Translations under genes and position numbers: made by a program
Origin: an uncultured Actinomycetes bacterium
GTDB lineage: Bacteria; Actinomycetota; Coriobacteriia; Coriobacteriales; Atopobiaceae
DNA: 42,184 bases
Direction of reading: 5' to 3'
Assembly (NCBI GenBank): GCA_900313905.1
Contig: OMTG01000018.1
Location: forward strand, 1 to 42,184
Notes under the pieces: model-generated
Seen by the model: the letters and a program-made list of their open reading frames with translations, nothing else
Databases searched by the model: none
Told to the model about the DNA's origin: nothing
Shown: positions 30,487 through 38,416 of the stretch, one piece after another
Position numbering within the stretch: the first letter of the stretch is position 1
How the letters are laid out: the number at the start of each line of letters is the position of its first letter

Positions 30487-31233
30487 TCAGAAGAGGACGC
30501 CGAGGACGATGAGGGCGAGGCAGAGGACAAGGACCATCCGGTCTGCGCCTTCCATCGGATAGCGCTTGTAGCTGCTCTCGCGGGTCCTCAGATAGAAGCC
30601 ACGCTGCTCTGCTGCAAGGGCGGTCGCATCGGTCTTGCCGACCGAGCTCACGAGCAGGGGAACGCAGAGCGGAAGCATCAGCTGGAGCTTGCGGATGGGA
30701 TTCTTCGTATCGTATTCCACGCCGCGGGCGCACTGGGCCTCCATGATGGAGTTCATCTCCTGGCTGAAGACCGGCACGAAGCGCAGGGCTGTCGTGAAGG
30801 TGAAGGCATAGCGGTAGGGGATATGGAGCACCTCGACGCAGGCATTGGCAAGATCGTTCAGCTTCGTGACCGAGAGCATCAAGATCAAGGGCAAAGCCAC
30901 GCCGAGCAGGCGCAGGCAGGCCTTGGAGCCAGTGATGAGGCCCGTGTCCGTCATCCACCAGAGCACGACCGTCCCTTCGCGCACGAAGGCAGTCTGCAGG
31001 AGCAGCATCACGATCGCGATGGGGACGAGGAGCTTCAGGAGGGAGAGGAGCTTTCCTGCCGAATGGGCATAGAAGCCCAGGCAGAAGGTCAGGGCAAGCA
31101 GGCAGAAGAGCATCACATAGGTGCCGGACAGGAAGGTCGCCACGATGATGGCAGCAGCGATAGCGAGCTTCGTGACGGGGTTGAGCTTGTGGAGGAGGGT
31201 GTCTCCTGGCACGTAATCGATCACATTAACCAC
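30487..31233 (-). CDS. ecfT: ECF transporter transmembrane protein EcfT
   Basis: A 248-residue integral membrane coupling subunit of an energy-coupling factor transporter. It links the substrate-binding S component to the ATPases. About five to six helices; the two coupling motifs are present in the C-terminal half as CARGVEYD (near residues 168-175) and the second as AAEQRGF (near 208-214), where the usual ARG is EQRG-like. The start overlaps the end of the ATPase gene by 8 bp, showing translational coupling. Last gene of the operon, 92 bp before its terminator. Confidence 0.93.
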   Translation of the reverse strand: MVNVIDYVPGDTLLHKLNPVTKLAIAAAIIVATFLSGTYVMLFCLLALTFCLGFYAHSAGKLLSLLKLLVPIAIVMLLLQTAFVREGTVVLWWMTDTGLITGSKACLRLLGVALPLILMLSVTKLNDLANACVEVLHIPYRYAFTFTTALRFVPVFSQEMNSIMEAQCARGVEYDTKNPIRKLQLMLPLCVPLLVSSVGKTDATALAAEQRGFYLRTRESSYKRYPMEGADRMVLVLCLALIVLGVLF

Positions 31234-33034
31234 GACGGACCATCTCCTCGGTGAGGTCGACGATGCCCGAGACCTGGCTTATGCCATGGAAATCGGGGCT
31301 CACGGTCTGGGCAAGGGTCTGGGAGAGCTGCACGATCTGCGGCGCCTCGATGAAGGCGCGCTTCATGAGGGGAGCATCCAGGAACATGTCCAAGGTGGGG
31401 CCACGGTCGAGGATGTGTCCATTGGCCATCACCACGAGGCGCTCGGCGAAGTCGGAGACGACCTCCATATCATGGCAGACCATAATGACGGCACAGCCTC
31501 TGTTCGCCATCTCGCTGACCGTGTCCATCACGGTCATGCATTCACGGTAGTCGAGGCCTGAGGTCGGCTCATCGAGGAGCACCACATCAGGCTCCATCAC
31601 CACGACGGAGGCAAGAGCGACAATCTGGCGCTGGCCTCGGGAGAGGGAGAAGGGCGCCTCATCCTCAGGAAGGCCGAAGCGCTCGATCACCCGCGCGGCA
31701 CGGCGCCGTGCCTCCTCGCTATCGACCCCCTGGAGCTCGAGGCCAAAGGCGACCTCGTCGAGCACGGTGTCCTTGCAGAGCTGGTAGTCGGGGTTCTGGA
31801 AGAGGGTGGCGCAGTGCGCGGCGATGCGGCTGGTCGGCACCTCCTTCGTGCTGAGGCCGGAGATGCGCACCTCGCCTGAGGCAGGCTTCAGAAGGCCGTT
31901 CAGAAGCTTCGTGAGCGTCGTCTTGCCGGCACCGTTCTGGCCGACGATAGCGACCATCTCGCCGGGATAGACCTGCATCTCGAGGCCTTCGACGGCAGCT
32001 CCGCCATTCGGATACCGGAAGCTCACATCGCGCAGGCTCACGACGGGCTCGGAGCCTTCTGCATGGGGACGGGGAGCGACCTTGTGCTTCGATCCCTGGC
32101 GGAAGCTCTGGGCGCTCTCGGGTGAGAGGGGCTCTGCAGCAGAGCGGCCGATGAGGCGTTCCTCGATCGCTGCAGCCTCTTCGACTGTGAGACAGGGCTT
32201 GCCGGAAGGAAGATACCCATCATGGGCGAGGCTGTTGTAGACGCGGGCGACACGGGGAGAGTCGACGCCGATGGCGCGGAGCTCGCCTGCGTGGGCAAAG
32301 ACCTCCCGCGGCGTACCATCGAGCAGGAGCTCGCCTTCATTCATCACCAGGATGCGGTCGCAGCAGCGGGAGAGCAGCGCCACCTTCTGTTCGATCACGA
32401 CGACTGTGACGCCCTGGCGGCGGACCTCCTCGAGGGTGTCGAAGACGAGGTTCGAAGAGGCAGGGTCGAGGGCGGCGGTTGGCTCGTCGAGGACGAGCAC
32501 CCGGGGCTTCAGGGCGAGGATGGCCGCAATTGCGACCTTCTGCTTCTGGCCGCCCGAGAGCGTCGCAATCTCACGGAAGCGCAGATCGGCGATGCCGACC
32601 GTCTCGAGGGCATCCTCCAGCCGTCCTTCGATCTCTGTGTGGGGGACGCCGAAGTTCTCGAGGCCGAAAAGCATCTCATCCTCGACGACGGAGGCGACCA
32701 TCTGGGTGTCGATGTCCTGGAGGACCGACCCGACGATCTGGGAGATGTCGGTCAGGGTCACGTCGCAGGTATCCTTCCCATCGACGAGCGTCGCCCCATA
32801 GAGCGTGCCCTTGTAGTGATGGGGGATGGCTCCTGACATCACGGCAGCAAGCGTGGACTTGCCTGCGCCGGAAGGCCCGATGATGCCGACGAACTCGCCG
32901 GTGCCGATCTGGACCGTGATATGGGAGAGCGCCGGCTTGGGGGCTGGCGCCCCTTCCTCTGCGCTTCCTGTGTCATAGGTGAAGGAGACGTCCTGGATAT
33001 CGATGATGGGCTGAGATGTTGTCGTGGGAGCCAT
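31226..33034 (-). CDS. Fused double ATPase of the ECF transporter (EcfA-EcfA')
   Basis: A 602-residue protein holding two ABC ATPase domains in one chain. Domain one: Walker A GPSGAGKST, signature LSGGQKQ, Walker B VLVLDEPTAALD. Domain two: Walker A GQNGAGKTT, signature LSRGQRQ, Walker B VVLLDEPTSGLD. Most ECF systems encode EcfA1 and EcfA2 separately; fused forms are known, notably in actinobacteria and archaea. ATG 33034 has AAGGAAGGG six bases upstream, whereas the extended frame to 33130 is intergenic. It should power both S components encoded upstream. Confidence 0.95.
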   Translation of the reverse strand: MAPTTTSQPIIDIQDVSFTYDTGSAEEGAPAPKPALSHITVQIGTGEFVGIIGPSGAGKSTLAAVMSGAIPHHYKGTLYGATLVDGKDTCDVTLTDISQIVGSVLQDIDTQMVASVVEDEMLFGLENFGVPHTEIEGRLEDALETVGIADLRFREIATLSGGQKQKVAIAAILALKPRVLVLDEPTAALDPASSNLVFDTLEEVRRQGVTVVVIEQKVALLSRCCDRILVMNEGELLLDGTPREVFAHAGELRAIGVDSPRVARVYNSLAHDGYLPSGKPCLTVEEAAAIEERLIGRSAAEPLSPESAQSFRQGSKHKVAPRPHAEGSEPVVSLRDVSFRYPNGGAAVEGLEMQVYPGEMVAIVGQNGAGKTTLTKLLNGLLKPASGEVRISGLSTKEVPTSRIAAHCATLFQNPDYQLCKDTVLDEVAFGLELQGVDSEEARRRAARVIERFGLPEDEAPFSLSRGQRQIVALASVVVMEPDVVLLDEPTSGLDYRECMTVMDTVSEMANRGCAVIMVCHDMEVVSDFAERLVVMANGHILDRGPTLDMFLDAPLMKRAFIEAPQIVQLSQTLAQTVSPDFHGISQVSGIVDLTEEMVRRG

Positions 33035-33149: not shown

Positions 33150-33701
33150 TTAGCGCTTCAGGGCCTTCTTCAGGGGGAAGTAGAGCGCCTGGACGACGAT
33201 TGCGTTGAAGGCAGCGGTGCCGAGCACGAGCGGGATCTTCACGACCACGGTCGCGATGGCAGCGCCCATGATCACGTTGCCGGCAACAGCAAAGAGAAGG
33301 CCGGAGACGAGCGTCGTCACGAAGGTGGCGACGAGCGGGGTCACGTTCCTGCCGGCGACCTTCATGTCCGCACGGATGAGGGCGGCCATCACCAAGGCAG
33401 CGACAAGCTCAGTTGCGAAGTTGAGGCCCGGGATGGAGGTCGTGAACTGGATGACGGCAGCGGAGATCAGGCCGTAGATGGCTGCTTGGCCGAAGCTGGC
33501 ACGGGTGAGGAGGATGGCAAGGGCATAGGAGGCGATGATGAACTGGGGCTTGATGCCGACCATTGCAAGCGAGTTGCCGACGGTGAGGTTCAGGATGAAG
33601 CCTGCGGCCAGAAGGACGGCCAGAAGGATGAGGGAGGTGACATCGGCGCCGGTGCGGCCGGATGCGGTGACGGTACGTGCCTGGGAGTTGGATTCTGCCA
33701 T
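33150..33701 (-). CDS. ECF transporter S component, copy 2
   Basis: A 183-residue substrate-binding membrane subunit. A short polar N-terminus (MAESNSQARTV) precedes six helices that start with TSLILLAVLLAAGFILNLTVG. It is clearly paralogous to the next gene upstream (33769-34338): both contain LLAVLLAAGFILN.TVG, GLISAAVIQ.TT and TFVTT.VSG, and both end with a VQALY(F/Y)P segment. Start chosen at ATG 33701 to match that of the paralogue; its ribosome binding site is weak (AGAAAGAG), which suggests coupling. The substrate is probably the same or close to that of copy 1; see the Trp attenuator. Confidence 0.88.
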   Translation of the reverse strand: MAESNSQARTVTASGRTGADVTSLILLAVLLAAGFILNLTVGNSLAMVGIKPQFIIASYALAILLTRASFGQAAIYGLISAAVIQFTTSIPGLNFATELVAALVMAALIRADMKVAGRNVTPLVATFVTTLVSGLLFAVAGNVIMGAAIATVVVKIPLVLGTAAFNAIVVQALYFPLKKALKR

Positions 33702-33768
33702 GATGAGCTCTTTCTCTTGATGGTTCCTGTGCTTGTCTTGCGGGACGGACGGTTCTGGATTTCTGCGC

Positions 33769-34338
33769 TTAGGCGGCAACCTTCAGCGCCTTGCAGATCG
33801 GGTAGTAGAGGGCCTGGACGAGGATCGCGTTGAAGACGGCGGTCGCGAAGACGACGGGGAGCATGGCGGCGGCGAGCTGGGCGGCGGCACCGACCATCGC
33901 GATGCGGATGAGCATGAAGATGACGCCAGAGACGACGGTCGTGACGAAGGTGCCGACAGCCGGCGTCGCCTTCCGGATGCTGCCCTTCATGCCGGCGGCG
34001 ACGATGAGGGACATGAGCATTGCAGAGATGCCCTCAGCGGCGAAGTCGACGAAGGGGGCGGTCGTCGTGATCTGGATGACGGCAGCGGAGATGAGGCCGA
34101 TGATCAGGGCCTGGCCGACGTTCGGACGGACGACGAGGATCGTGAGGCAGAAGGCGGAGATGATGAACTCCGGGGAGATCATGCCGCCGGAGACGGAGGA
34201 GATTGCCTTGCCGACCGTGAAGTTCAGGATGAAGCCCGCTGCAAGGAGGACGGCCAGAAGGACGAGGGCGCGGATATCGAGCTTGCCATGATCTTCGGAG
34301 GTGATGGTACGTGCCTGCTGCTGGGTTGCTGCTGCCAT
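33769..34338 (-). CDS. ECF transporter S component, copy 1
   Basis: A 189-residue six-helix S component, the first structural gene of the operon. The N-terminus MAAATQQQARTITSEDHGK is soluble; helix one is LVLLAVLLAAGFILNFTVG. The conserved Ala-rich surface for EcfT docking (LLAVLLAAGF) is present. ATG 34338 has AAAGGAAG about 9 bases upstream. A tandem pair of S components sharing one ATPase/EcfT core is uncommon. The gene lies 56 bp behind a transcription attenuator whose leader peptide has three consecutive tryptophans, so a Trp-related substrate is inferred. I could not place it in a named S-family from sequence. Confidence 0.88.
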   Translation of the reverse strand: MAAATQQQARTITSEDHGKLDIRALVLLAVLLAAGFILNFTVGKAISSVSGGMISPEFIISAFCLTILVVRPNVGQALIIGLISAAVIQITTTAPFVDFAAEGISAMLMSLIVAAGMKGSIRKATPAVGTFVTTVVSGVIFMLIRIAMVGAAAQLAAAMLPVVFATAVFNAILVQALYYPICKALKVAA

Positions 34339-34393: not shown

Positions 34394-34434
34394 GAAAACA
34401 AGAAGAGGGCCCCGGTCTGACCGGAGCCCTCTTC
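34394..34434 (-). terminator. Attenuator terminator of the ECF operon
   Basis: Read on the minus strand, GAAGAGGGCTCCGGTC (34434-34419) pairs with GACCGGGGCCCTCTTC (34417-34402), 16 bp with one G-U pair, followed by TTGTTTTC. It lies between the Trp leader peptide and the first S-component gene, the place of a transcription attenuator. CGGTCT in the last codons of the leader is complementary to AGACCG at the loop, a candidate for part of the alternative fold. Confidence 0.85.
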
Positions 34435-34468
34435 AGTGTGTGCGCATATGCAATGGAGCGCGAGAGAC

Positions 34469-34549
34469 TCACGATAGACCGATCGTATTCACATCGCGCC
34501 ACCACCAGTTCATGCTCATGTTGTTTGCGGTATGGGCGATGCGAGTCAT
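34469..34549 (-). CDS. Tryptophan-rich leader peptide (attenuator) of the ECF operon
   Basis: A 26-codon frame on the minus strand from ATG 34549 to TGA at 34471-34469. A strong ribosome binding site, GAAAGGAG, is 9 bases upstream (34566-34559). The peptide starts MTRIAHTANN and contains NWWWRDV: codons 15-17 are three consecutive TGG (34507-34499). Ahead of an attenuator terminator this is the layout of TrpL in trp operons: ribosome stalling at low charged tRNA-Trp would favour antitermination and switch the transporter on. Not predicted by length-based gene finders. Confidence 0.88.
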   Translation of the reverse strand: MTRIAHTANNMSMNWWWRDVNTIGLS

Positions 34550-34610
34550 CTCTGGGCGCTCCTTTCGAAATCACGTGTGCCCACCTCGTGGGCTGCTGCT
34601 TGATGCGCCC

Positions 34611-34640
34611 ACTATAAGCCCGACCCCCAGAAAGATGCAA
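34611..34640 (-). promoter_or_regulatory. Promoter of the ECF operon
   Basis: On the minus strand TTGCAT (34640-34635) and TATAGT (34616-34611) are 18 bp apart. A start of transcription near 34604 would give about 55 nt before the leader peptide ATG. Confidence 0.6.
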
Positions 34641-35184: not shown

Positions 35185-36579
35185 TCAGTAGCCCATGAGC
35201 TGCAGGACGAACATGATCACGGTGAGGATCGTCACGACGATCACGATGAACCAGGTGAGGATGTTCCAGAGCTTCGAGTTCGCATGCTTTCCCATCACGT
35301 AGCGGTTCGAGGCGATGAGCACCATGCAGACCAGGAGGATCGGCAGGATCACGCCGTTGATGACCTGGGCGACCATCATGATGCCAAAGAGGTCCACATC
35401 CGGAATGCAGCAGATGGCTGCGGAGAGAATGGTGATGACGGTGATGATGCCGCGGTAGACGGGCGCCTCATGCCAGGTGCGGTCGCTTCCGCGCTCCCAG
35501 CCGAAGGCCTCGCAGACGGCGCTTGCCGTGATGCCCGGAAGCACGCAGGCAGCCAGGAAGGATGCACCGACGAGGCCGACTGCGAAGAGGGCGGATGCGT
35601 ACTCCCCTGCGAGCGGCACGAGGGCCTGGGCGGCGGCCGCTGCCGTATCGACCTTGATGCCCGCTGGATAGAGGACAGCTCCTGTGGTCATGATGATGAA
35701 CCAGGTGACGAGCTCTGCTGCGACAGCGCCTGAGACGTTGTCGGCACGCTGGGCGGGGATGTCTGTGGCATCGAGGTTCTTCTCCACGACATTGCTCGAG
35801 ACCATGAAGATCATATAGGGCGAGATCGTGGTGCCGATGTTCGCGACGAGGAGCGAGACATAGGCGGGATCGCTCGAGATCTGAGGGATGACCGTGGCCG
35901 TAAGGGCTGCTCCCCAGTCAGGCTTTGCGAGGACGCCCGATACGATGTAGGTCAAAAACACGGCGGAGAGGGCGAGCAGGATCTTCTCGATCCTGCGGTA
36001 CGATCCGCTCATGGTGAGCATCCAGCAGGCAAGCGCTGCGACGGGCACGCTGGCCAGGATCGGGACGCCGAAGAGCTGCATGCCCGAGGCGATGCCGGCG
36101 AACTCGGAGAGCGTGACCGCGAAGTTCGAGATGATGAGGGCGACCATCGCGAGAGCCGAGATGCGGACGCCGAACTGCTCGCGGATGAGGGAGGCGAAGC
36201 CCTTGCCGGTCGCGCATCCCATGCGGGCGGCGGTCTCCTGCACGACGATCAGGAGGATGCACATCAGGGGTACGGTCCAGAGCATGCCGAAGCCATAGCT
36301 CGCGCCGGTCGTCGAATAGGTGGCGATGCCGCCGGCGTCGTTGCCGGCGAAGGCGGTAAGGAGCCCGGGACCCATGGCAGAGAGGATCGCAAGCGCCCCT
36401 GCCTTCTTCGCCACATCGTGGCTCTTCCTGTCTTGCGGGGCAGAGGCCGTGCTGCCAGCCTTTGCCTGCGAAGAGGCGCTGGCCTGCGGTACTGCTGCAG
36501 GCTTCGGGGACTCTGGCCCCCGGTGACGGGGCGCCTCAGCTGGAGCTGAGGCGCCAAGAAGATGCTTGATCTCAGTCAT
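35185..36579 (-). CDS. Nramp-related (SLC11) divalent metal transporter, probably NRMT-type Mg2+ importer
   Basis: A 464-residue Nramp-fold transporter. The first ~55 residues are a Pro/Ala/Ser-rich cytosolic tail. Helix one carries GNDAGGIATYS where classical Nramps have DPGN: the Asp is kept (Asp81) and the Asn is replaced by Gly84. Helix six has TTISPYMIF, lacking the metal-binding Met of the usual MPH motif. Both changes match the magnesium-transporting NRMT branch, characterised in a coriobacterial protein. The downstream position from an MgtE-like gene (10 bp apart, same strand) supports Mg2+ as substrate. ATG 36579 has GAGGAGGGG upstream; the frame is open to 36633 but that overlaps MgtE. 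Manganese transport is the alternative. Confidence 0.87.
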   Translation of the reverse strand: MTEIKHLLGASAPAEAPRHRGPESPKPAAVPQASASSQAKAGSTASAPQDRKSHDVAKKAGALAILSAMGPGLLTAFAGNDAGGIATYSTTGASYGFGMLWTVPLMCILLIVVQETAARMGCATGKGFASLIREQFGVRISALAMVALIISNFAVTLSEFAGIASGMQLFGVPILASVPVAALACWMLTMSGSYRRIEKILLALSAVFLTYIVSGVLAKPDWGAALTATVIPQISSDPAYVSLLVANIGTTISPYMIFMVSSNVVEKNLDATDIPAQRADNVSGAVAAELVTWFIIMTTGAVLYPAGIKVDTAAAAAQALVPLAGEYASALFAVGLVGASFLAACVLPGITASAVCEAFGWERGSDRTWHEAPVYRGIITVITILSAAICCIPDVDLFGIMMVAQVINGVILPILLVCMVLIASNRYVMGKHANSKLWNILTWFIVIVVTILTVIMFVLQLMGY

Positions 36580-36589
36580 TGTCCCCTCC

Positions 36590-38416
36590 TCAGAGCCCGA
36601 GGGTGCAGATGGTGATCGCCAGGAACAGGGCAAGCGCTATGAGCATATAGACCACGGCCAAGGTGGTGCCGGAGGTCTCGAGGTTCTTGGCATCGCGCCT
36701 GCGCACGATCTTGAGGGCGATGGGCGTCGTGGCAAAGCAGACGAGGGCGCTCAGGGCAGCAGCGCCGACACCCTGCAGGGTGACCTGCGCCGGAGCGTCG
36801 AGGACGCTCGTCAGGATGGAGCTTGAGAGCAGCGCCACGAAGACGGCGATGACAAAGCCGAGGCCTACGCCTTTGAGGACCATGCCGAAGGTGGAGGGGG
36901 CATCATCGTCGTCAGGATCGTACTCGAGGAAGTACTTCGCCACGAAGGCCGCTGCATCGTTTCCGGCAATCACGGCAACAGGCATGCAGAAGGCAGCGAT
37001 CGCGATGTCGTACCAGGTGAGGGTGTTATGGAAGACGATGACCATGATCACGACGCCGAGCATCCAGACGAAGAACCAGGCCTCGTTGCGCATGAGCCAG
37101 GCGAGGTCTCCCGTCGTACGGCCTTCGGTCGAGGTGTCGTTGTGGCCGGCGCCTGCGATCTGGAGGTCCTCCTCGTGCTCCTCGTTCAGGACATCGAGGG
37201 CATCATCGACCGTGACATTGCCGAGCAGGTGTCCTTGGTCATCGACGACGGGCATCGCGAGCAGGTTGTACTTCGCGATATCCTCTGCGACATCCTCCTG
37301 GTCGTCGTCCGGACTTGCGCACTTGATGTCCTCGGTGGTCGCGATCTCCTTCAGGTGGTCGTCCTTGTCAGCGAGGACGAGCGCGTTCAGGGAGACGACG
37401 CCGGAGAGGCGGCCGTCAGCATCCTTGATGTAGATGTAGTGGACGGTCTCGAAGTCCTCATCGAGGCTGGAGAGTGCATCGACCGCATCGGCGACCGTGG
37501 CATTCTCGAAGAGCTCAACGACCTCTGATGTCATGATTCGGCCGGCCGTGTCCTCCTTGTAGCCCAGGAGCTGGCGGACAGCACGCTGCTCCTTCACGCC
37601 CATGAGGCGCAGGAGCTTCTCGGCCTTGTCGTAATCGAGCTCGCCGACGAGCTCTGCTGCATCGTCCGGGTCCATCTCGGAGAGCATCTGGGAGGCGTCG
37701 GTCTCGTTCATCGTGGACATGATGTCGGCGGCGATCGTGTCGTCGTCGAACTCTGCCATGGTGCCGGCCTTTTGTTCGGCATCGAGCTGGGCGAAGACCT
37801 GGCCACGCAGGCGCGGATCGAGGCGCTCGATGATGTCGGCGATGTCGGCAGGGTGCATATCGTCGAGGGTCTTGTGGCTGACCGAGAGCTTCACGTCGGA
37901 GAGGTCGCGGTCCAGGAGGTCCATATAGTTCCAGGCGATGATCTTCTCGGGGATCGTCTTGCCCATGGACTTGGCGACCTTGAGGACGAAGCGCTCGAGG
38001 CGCGGTGAGAGGGCGCGCAGCAGCCCGCGGATGCCGACCTCTGCGCCCAGAAGGCGCAGCTGTGTCGAGTTGGTGTCGGAGAGCTTGAGGTCATTGACGC
38101 GCACGACGCGGACGCCACGCGTATCGACGATCTGCTTGTTCAGGAGGTCGCGTGCGATCAGCACCTCATCAGGCTGGAGGTAGCTGAAGCGGATGTCGGT
38201 CTTCACGACCTTCAGGCGCACTTCGTTCTCGTTATACGTGTCGACATACTTGCGCCACGAGAGCATGAACGGAGTGCGGCTGGGGCCTTCGATTGCGAGC
38301 GAGGTGACGCGGGGGAACACTTCGCCCGTGGCAATGCCGAGGTCATTCACGCGGCCGATGTTCTCGCCTGTTGCGTCAAAGACCGGATTGCCCAGGAGTT
38401 GGGTGAGATAGATCAT
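36590..38416 (-). CDS. PRC-barrel/MgtE-like Mg2+ transporter or sensor with CBS pair
   Basis: A 608-residue protein. Residues 1-120 form one or two PRC-barrel-like domains (LLGNPVFDATGENIGRVNDL; VDTRGVRVVRVNDLKLSD). Residues ~180-310 are the MgtE N domain of helical repeats (HPADIADIIERLDP, MDPDDAAELVGELD, LLGYKEDTAGRIMT). Two CBS domains follow to ~440. The C-terminal ~150 residues have about five helices. In MgtE the membrane core carries a conserved AGN-G-Q patch; here it reads VIAGNDAAAFVAKY. The core is therefore divergent, so it may be a transporter with altered selectivity or a regulatory partner of the following NRMT-like gene. Start ATG 38416 follows AAGGAG seven bases upstream. Confidence 0.88.
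   Translation of the reverse strand: MIYLTQLLGNPVFDATGENIGRVNDLGIATGEVFPRVTSLAIEGPSRTPFMLSWRKYVDTYNENEVRLKVVKTDIRFSYLQPDEVLIARDLLNKQIVDTRGVRVVRVNDLKLSDTNSTQLRLLGAEVGIRGLLRALSPRLERFVLKVAKSMGKTIPEKIIAWNYMDLLDRDLSDVKLSVSHKTLDDMHPADIADIIERLDPRLRGQVFAQLDAEQKAGTMAEFDDDTIAADIMSTMNETDASQMLSEMDPDDAAELVGELDYDKAEKLLRLMGVKEQRAVRQLLGYKEDTAGRIMTSEVVELFENATVADAVDALSSLDEDFETVHYIYIKDADGRLSGVVSLNALVLADKDDHLKEIATTEDIKCASPDDDQEDVAEDIAKYNLLAMPVVDDQGHLLGNVTVDDALDVLNEEHEEDLQIAGAGHNDTSTEGRTTGDLAWLMRNEAWFFVWMLGVVIMVIVFHNTLTWYDIAIAAFCMPVAVIAGNDAAAFVAKYFLEYDPDDDDAPSTFGMVLKGVGLGFVIAVFVALLSSSILTSVLDAPAQVTLQGVGAAALSALVCFATTPIALKIVRRRDAKNLETSGTTLAVVYMLIALALFLAITICTLGL

Follow-up and report, generated by a model that had tools for sequence, protein, structure and literature searches.

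The window, that is the whole 42,184-nucleotide stretch of DNA that was analysed, carries on its reverse strand an ECF transporter operon in the order S1, S2, fused A-A' and T, which lies 3' of a leader ORF and an intrinsic terminator (Table 1). This bears out the gene order of the original prediction, in which ecfS1-ecfS2-ecfAA'-ecfT directly followed the leader. At this locus, as in relatives, the terminator sits between the leader and the first gene. Further upstream of the operon on the same strand (positions 35185-38416), a gene for an Nramp-type transporter adjoins one for an MgtE_N/CBS/PRC-barrel protein, possibly forming a Mn/Mg transport pair.

Table 1. Positions of features in the window (upper rows) and of related elements in other genomes (last two rows)
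Feature	Position	Strand	Basis
-35-like element TTGCAT	34635..34640	-	Sequence; TTGC.. at consistent distance in most relatives
-10-like element TATAGT, spacer 18	34611..34616	-	Sequence and relatives; missed by stricter consensus scan
Shine-Dalgarno AAAGGAG of leader ORF, 9 nt 5' of ATG	34559..34565	-	Sequence, relatives
Leader peptide MTRIAHTANNMSMNWWWRDVNTIGLS, 26 codons, ATG start	34469..34549	-	ORF call; counterparts in relatives
Putative sensor, three tandem Trp codons TGG TGG TGG	34499..34507	-	Near invariant among relatives
Region 2, predicted antiterminator 5' strand straddling the leader stop codon, CGGUCUAUCGUGAGUCUC	34464..34481	-	Pairing test
Region 3, predicted antiterminator 3' strand; shared with the 5' arm, loop and first part of the 3' arm of the terminator	34413..34430	-	Pairing test
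Intrinsic terminator hairpin, then tail TTGTTTTC	34402..34434	-	Folding and terminator scan
ecfS1, TrpP-type S component, 189 aa	33769..34338	-	PF17099, AlphaFold model
ecfS2, second TrpP-type S component, 183 aa	33150..33701	-	PF17099 above cut-off
ecfA-A', fused ATPases, probable start MAPTTTS; ORF open to 33130	31226..33034	-	TIGR04520 and TIGR04521 above cut-off
ecfT	30487..31233	-	TIGR02454 below cut-off; position; conserved in relatives
T-boxes before trpP in two relatives (G073, G067)	L071 531-789; L072 301-558	+; -	UGG specifier
WWW leaders before symporter genes	L151 6151-6255; L157 (G304:C1:426882-426992)

The leader had been described as a 26-codon ORF with three consecutive TGG codons and a strong ribosome binding site, and all of these elements were found. 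A terminator hairpin of 16 bp with a U-tract had also been proposed; the hairpin is present, but the terminator scan gave 15 pairs around a loop of 3, and the U-tract is interrupted (TTGTTTTC). It was the sole terminator found by the scan, shuffled sequences giving 0.3, and the 211-nt leader RNA as a whole folds far better than shuffled sequence (z = -4.48). Comparison of the window with Rfam at gathering score returned no match, including none to the T-box family RF00230. By consensus, the promoter is the weakest element and falls short of what had been claimed for it, as the TTGCAT-18-TATAGT arrangement matches at 3/6 and 5/6 positions and was missed by a consensus promoter scan. Most of 63 relatives nevertheless have an element of this kind, TTGC..-17/18-TAT(A/C)(G/T)T, at much the same distance; a loose search matched 48 of them.

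Both S components match one Pfam family only, TrpP (PF17099): S1 with an E-value of 9e-6 and 26.0 bits, just below the cut-off of 27.2, and S2 with 29.7 bits, above it. Of 24 aligned members, 21 matched the same family at E <= 0.01. An AlphaFold model of S1 (pLDDT 84.5) consists of six helices, and its nearest solved folds are S components of the RibU/ThiT type (probability 0.87-1.00, TM about 0.55), suggesting an S-component fold, albeit at modest E-values of 0.1-0.8; a sequence search of the PDB with S1 gave no match. The fused A-A' protein matches TIGR04520 and TIGR04521 above cut-off, and the T component was assigned both by position and by a match below cut-off (E 8.5e-15) to TIGR02454, the CbiQ-type T component. 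The S components stand in tandem (33150-34338), S2 being 51% identical to S1, whereas most of the Collinsella-type relatives examined have one S component only.

The distribution of the leader was determined in the GTDB-family set of 140 genomes, of which 69 contain S homologues and 71 contain none. A covariance model of the leader, which matches the window at 34397-34513, gave hits at E<1e-10 at 64 places, distributed over 63 of the 69 TrpP genomes; the 71 others had none at this threshold. Reading upstream of the S genes showed that, in nearly all TrpP genomes, a terminator comes after a WWW leader. Six TrpP genomes had no model match at this threshold. In G017 a WWW leader is present but its terminator has diverged, G039 and G040 have lost the Trp codons and retain the terminator only (both have trpC and trpA), and G008 has no leader, RNase P RNA lying just upstream. 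In the remaining two, G067 and G073, the place of the WWW leader upstream of trpP is taken by a T-box, with a UGG specifier read from the alignment and by eye from the sequence. In a class-wide set of 298 genomes, 113 had a match to the model at E<1e-6, some of them from other families of the order, and a leader was present in 77 of 80 relatives with named records (Olsenella, Collinsella, Atopobium, Slackia, Enorma, Thermophilibacter and others); phage records contained no sequence similar to it. Leader conservation is far beyond chance, and the TGG triplet, the terminator and the alternative fold, whose presence in relatives the original prediction had made its test, are kept in dozens of species. 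Of 57 distinct leaders, 53 share a spacing of 12 codons between first W and stop, although the segment in between occurs in 39 versions; a spacing kept despite varied residues would be expected if the position of the ribosome is the signal.

Region 2 is the segment CGGUCGAUCGUGAGUC, which lies across the leader stop codon in 56 leaders; its pairing partner, region 3, takes in the 5' arm and loop of the terminator together with the first bases of the 3' arm. This pairing comprises two helices (11 pairs) and is canonical in 95.3% of cells over the 56 leaders, a share that drops to 28-52% once the partner is displaced by 1-3 bases. Cognate duplexes also beat permuted ones (P = 0.00025), in a control that ignores the phylogenetic relatedness of the sequences. 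As much of the pairing is invariant and two-sided compensatory cells number seven, with similar or higher numbers in the slid controls, the case for the antiterminator rests on the percentage paired, the energies and the conservation. Of the 56 leaders, 54 use GGU for the Gly codon within region 2. The last sense codon of the leader varies (TCG, TGG or CTC); where region 2 contains ACUC, as it does in seven leaders, the loop is always of the GGGUU, GGGGUUU or GAGUU type. Folding of the RNA from the Trp-codon stall to the end of region 3 gave the region 2:3 structure in the printed examples, and once the 3' arm was present, the terminator was usually the more stable of the two; the window's own leader was part of the pairing test and lay outside the stall-folding run. 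The predicted antiterminator is exclusive with the terminator and conserved in relatives, with limited two-sided covariation. Region 2 starts 17 nt beyond the last of the Trp codons and includes the leader stop; from this geometry, a ribosome at the stop codon would mask the antiterminator strand, and a ribosome at the Trp codons would not. A possible 1:2 helix between the WWWR codons and a UCGCGCC motif after the stop fits many of the sequences by eye. The Shine-Dalgarno region of the leader was also considered as the antiterminator strand and was dropped, as the alignment places region 2 at the stop codon.

Neither trpC (PF00218) nor trpD (PF00591) was found in the host genome, which is rated 100% complete. 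The host, a gut bacterium, is therefore a predicted tryptophan auxotroph, for which uptake would be a step worth regulating. Across the family, trpC occurs in 12 of the 69 TrpP genomes versus 34 of the 71 others (Fisher P = 1.4e-4, not corrected for phylogeny), so that TrpP and trpC tend toward mutual exclusion. A scar of the trp operon was located elsewhere in the host genome (L085, G000:C19, 6938-8534, forward strand), where a match to the N-terminal end of TrpE runs into the C-terminal 125 residues of TrpB (82% identity to the sister genome G052), with an intact trpA behind them; the trpE'-'trpB junction may be an assembly join. A T-box precedes the scar (E 5.6e-15, specifier UGG by eye); its score, too, is under the Rfam gathering cut-off. 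G052, of the same genus, has a whole trp operon behind a T-box, and T-boxes were detected near the trp biosynthesis operons of all eight relatives inspected (G052 and seven more; L120-L127), with scores of 54-83 bits that all lie below the Rfam gathering score of 93 for RF00230. No convincing W-rich leader was seen near the trp biosynthesis operons of these eight.

W-rich leaders were found before other genes as well. The second full-length model match in the host (L128, G000:C176:12090-12193) is immediately upstream of a gene of the TrpB2 type (matches to NF009057 and TIGR01415, both above cut-off), which has its own W-rich leader, MFQHADIASSELQLCCGEWWRAWTLSIPV, and terminator. Leaders of the ...WWWTRTTPLSD type, or similar, precede trpB2 in about fourteen relatives, and the pairing of stop codon to terminator is present in most, not all, of them. 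In G298 (L153, G298:C13), one WWW leader is followed by trpB2, trpP and ecfA in a row, which probably links salvage and import in one operon. In another family of the order (G203 and G304), WWW leaders stand before SNF-family (LeuT-type) symporters, which are possible Trp symporters. It is likely that in the Coriobacteriales two different RNA sensors, both reading the charging of tRNA-Trp, divide the regulation of tryptophan supply: a Trp T-box would govern de novo synthesis, and one family of similar ribosome attenuators would govern acquisition through TrpP-ECF import, indole salvage by TrpB2 and, in some lineages, LeuT-type symporters. In some genera trpP would have switched from one sensor to the other.

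The TrpL-type architecture that the original prediction placed in control of an ECF transporter was upheld, leader, terminator and alternative pairing all being conserved in relatives. The locus very probably encodes an ECF importer of tryptophan whose transcription is set by an attenuator of the classical, ribosome-mediated kind, with charged tRNA-Trp as the sensed signal. In a shortage of Trp-tRNA, the ribosome would stall on the three UGG codons, leaving region 2 free to pair with the emerging region 3; the terminator would be blocked and the S1-S2-AA'-T operon transcribed. When Trp-tRNA is plentiful, the ribosome would reach the stop codon and cover region 2, upon which the terminator would form and transcription would end. 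The second Trp-rich leader would control trpB2, and with it the conversion of indole to tryptophan.

As to the substrate, the original prediction had left a choice between tryptophan and a related compound, outside the best-known ECF vitamins. Tryptophan is the best-supported candidate from the Pfam TrpP assignment, the predicted auxotrophy of a host without trpC and trpD, and the UGG T-box replacing the leader in two relatives; indole, anthranilate or kynurenine is less likely. Tryptophan is not new as an ECF substrate, B. subtilis TrpP being counted as an ECF S protein (PMC11487621). An unlikely alternative accepts the attenuator as described and has the operon import an indolic or aromatic compound (indole, anthranilate, kynurenine or an indole acid) instead of or besides tryptophan, with the substrates split between the two S components. 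Two paralogues only 51% identical behind one leader, and the marginal Pfam scores of both, would fit such a split, but the same type of leader also stands before single-S operons, and the family concerned is named for a tryptophan transporter that is counted as an ECF S protein in B. subtilis. The TrpB2 of the same regulon could use imported indole, although indole passes membranes unaided. The absence of trpC from most TrpP genomes also argues against a related compound, since these genomes would need tryptophan itself or indole.

Far less probable is direct sensing of free tryptophan, as by TRAP or an aptamer, in which case the conserved element would be a riboswitch or a protein-binding terminator and the leader ORF incidental to it. 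The RNA around the leader stop codon is indeed strongly conserved, but the region 2:3 pairing explains this conservation, and the fixed distance from the W codons to the stop and the Shine-Dalgarno sequence before the leader ORF also count against direct sensing; inspection by eye showed no (G/U)AG repeats of the TRAP type, and Rfam gave no match at gathering score. Least probable of all is a mere terminator or spacer left over from another leader and without present regulation, as might be read from G039 and G040, for these two genomes have trpC and trpA, and the full switch is kept across genera and families where uptake is needed.

Both the attenuation mechanism and the TrpP transporter family are already known. 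The combination of attenuator and TrpP, its spread in the Coriobacteriales, the design of the antiterminator, the regulon and the division of labour with T-boxes appear undescribed: literature searches, with a scope outside subscription journals, returned no paper on a Coriobacteriales WWW leader, and Coriobacteriia are not among the genera named in the accessible part of a survey of actinobacterial attenuators (PMC1262725). If the ribosome-mediated attenuator described here operates as proposed, the leader would be independent evidence that a large group of dedicated ECF transporters carries tryptophan. It would also provide a handle, based on tRNA charging, on the competition of gut and oral actinobacteria (Collinsella, Olsenella, Atopobium) for a host-relevant amino acid, and would indicate that trp attenuation can persist for acquisition genes after the loss of biosynthesis.

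As far as the accessible part of the survey describes them, the trpL leaders of enterobacteria and of Corynebacterium and Streptomyces share with the present element a short leader with double or triple UGG, a GC-rich terminator, an alternative antiterminator and the ribosome as sensor (PMC1262725). The actinobacterial attenuators covered there precede trp biosynthesis operons or trpS, whereas the leader described here precedes a transporter operon, with similar copies before trpB2 and SNF-family symporters. Again unlike trpL, the de novo trp operon of relatives carries a T-box. B. subtilis TrpP (YhaG, PF17099), whose family S1 and S2 match, is regulated by TRAP, in contrast to the ribosome attenuation proposed here. 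It also uses a shared ECF module (PMC11487621), whereas the present operon includes a dedicated one. The C. glutamicum protein called TrpP (cg3357), an SdpI-family protein of unknown role (PMC11995493), shares only its name with the PF17099 family. Finally, the WWW leader would respond to the same signal as the Trp T-box (RF00230, UGG specifier), uncharged tRNA-Trp, but while the T-box reads the tRNA directly, the sensor in the WWW leader would be the translating ribosome.
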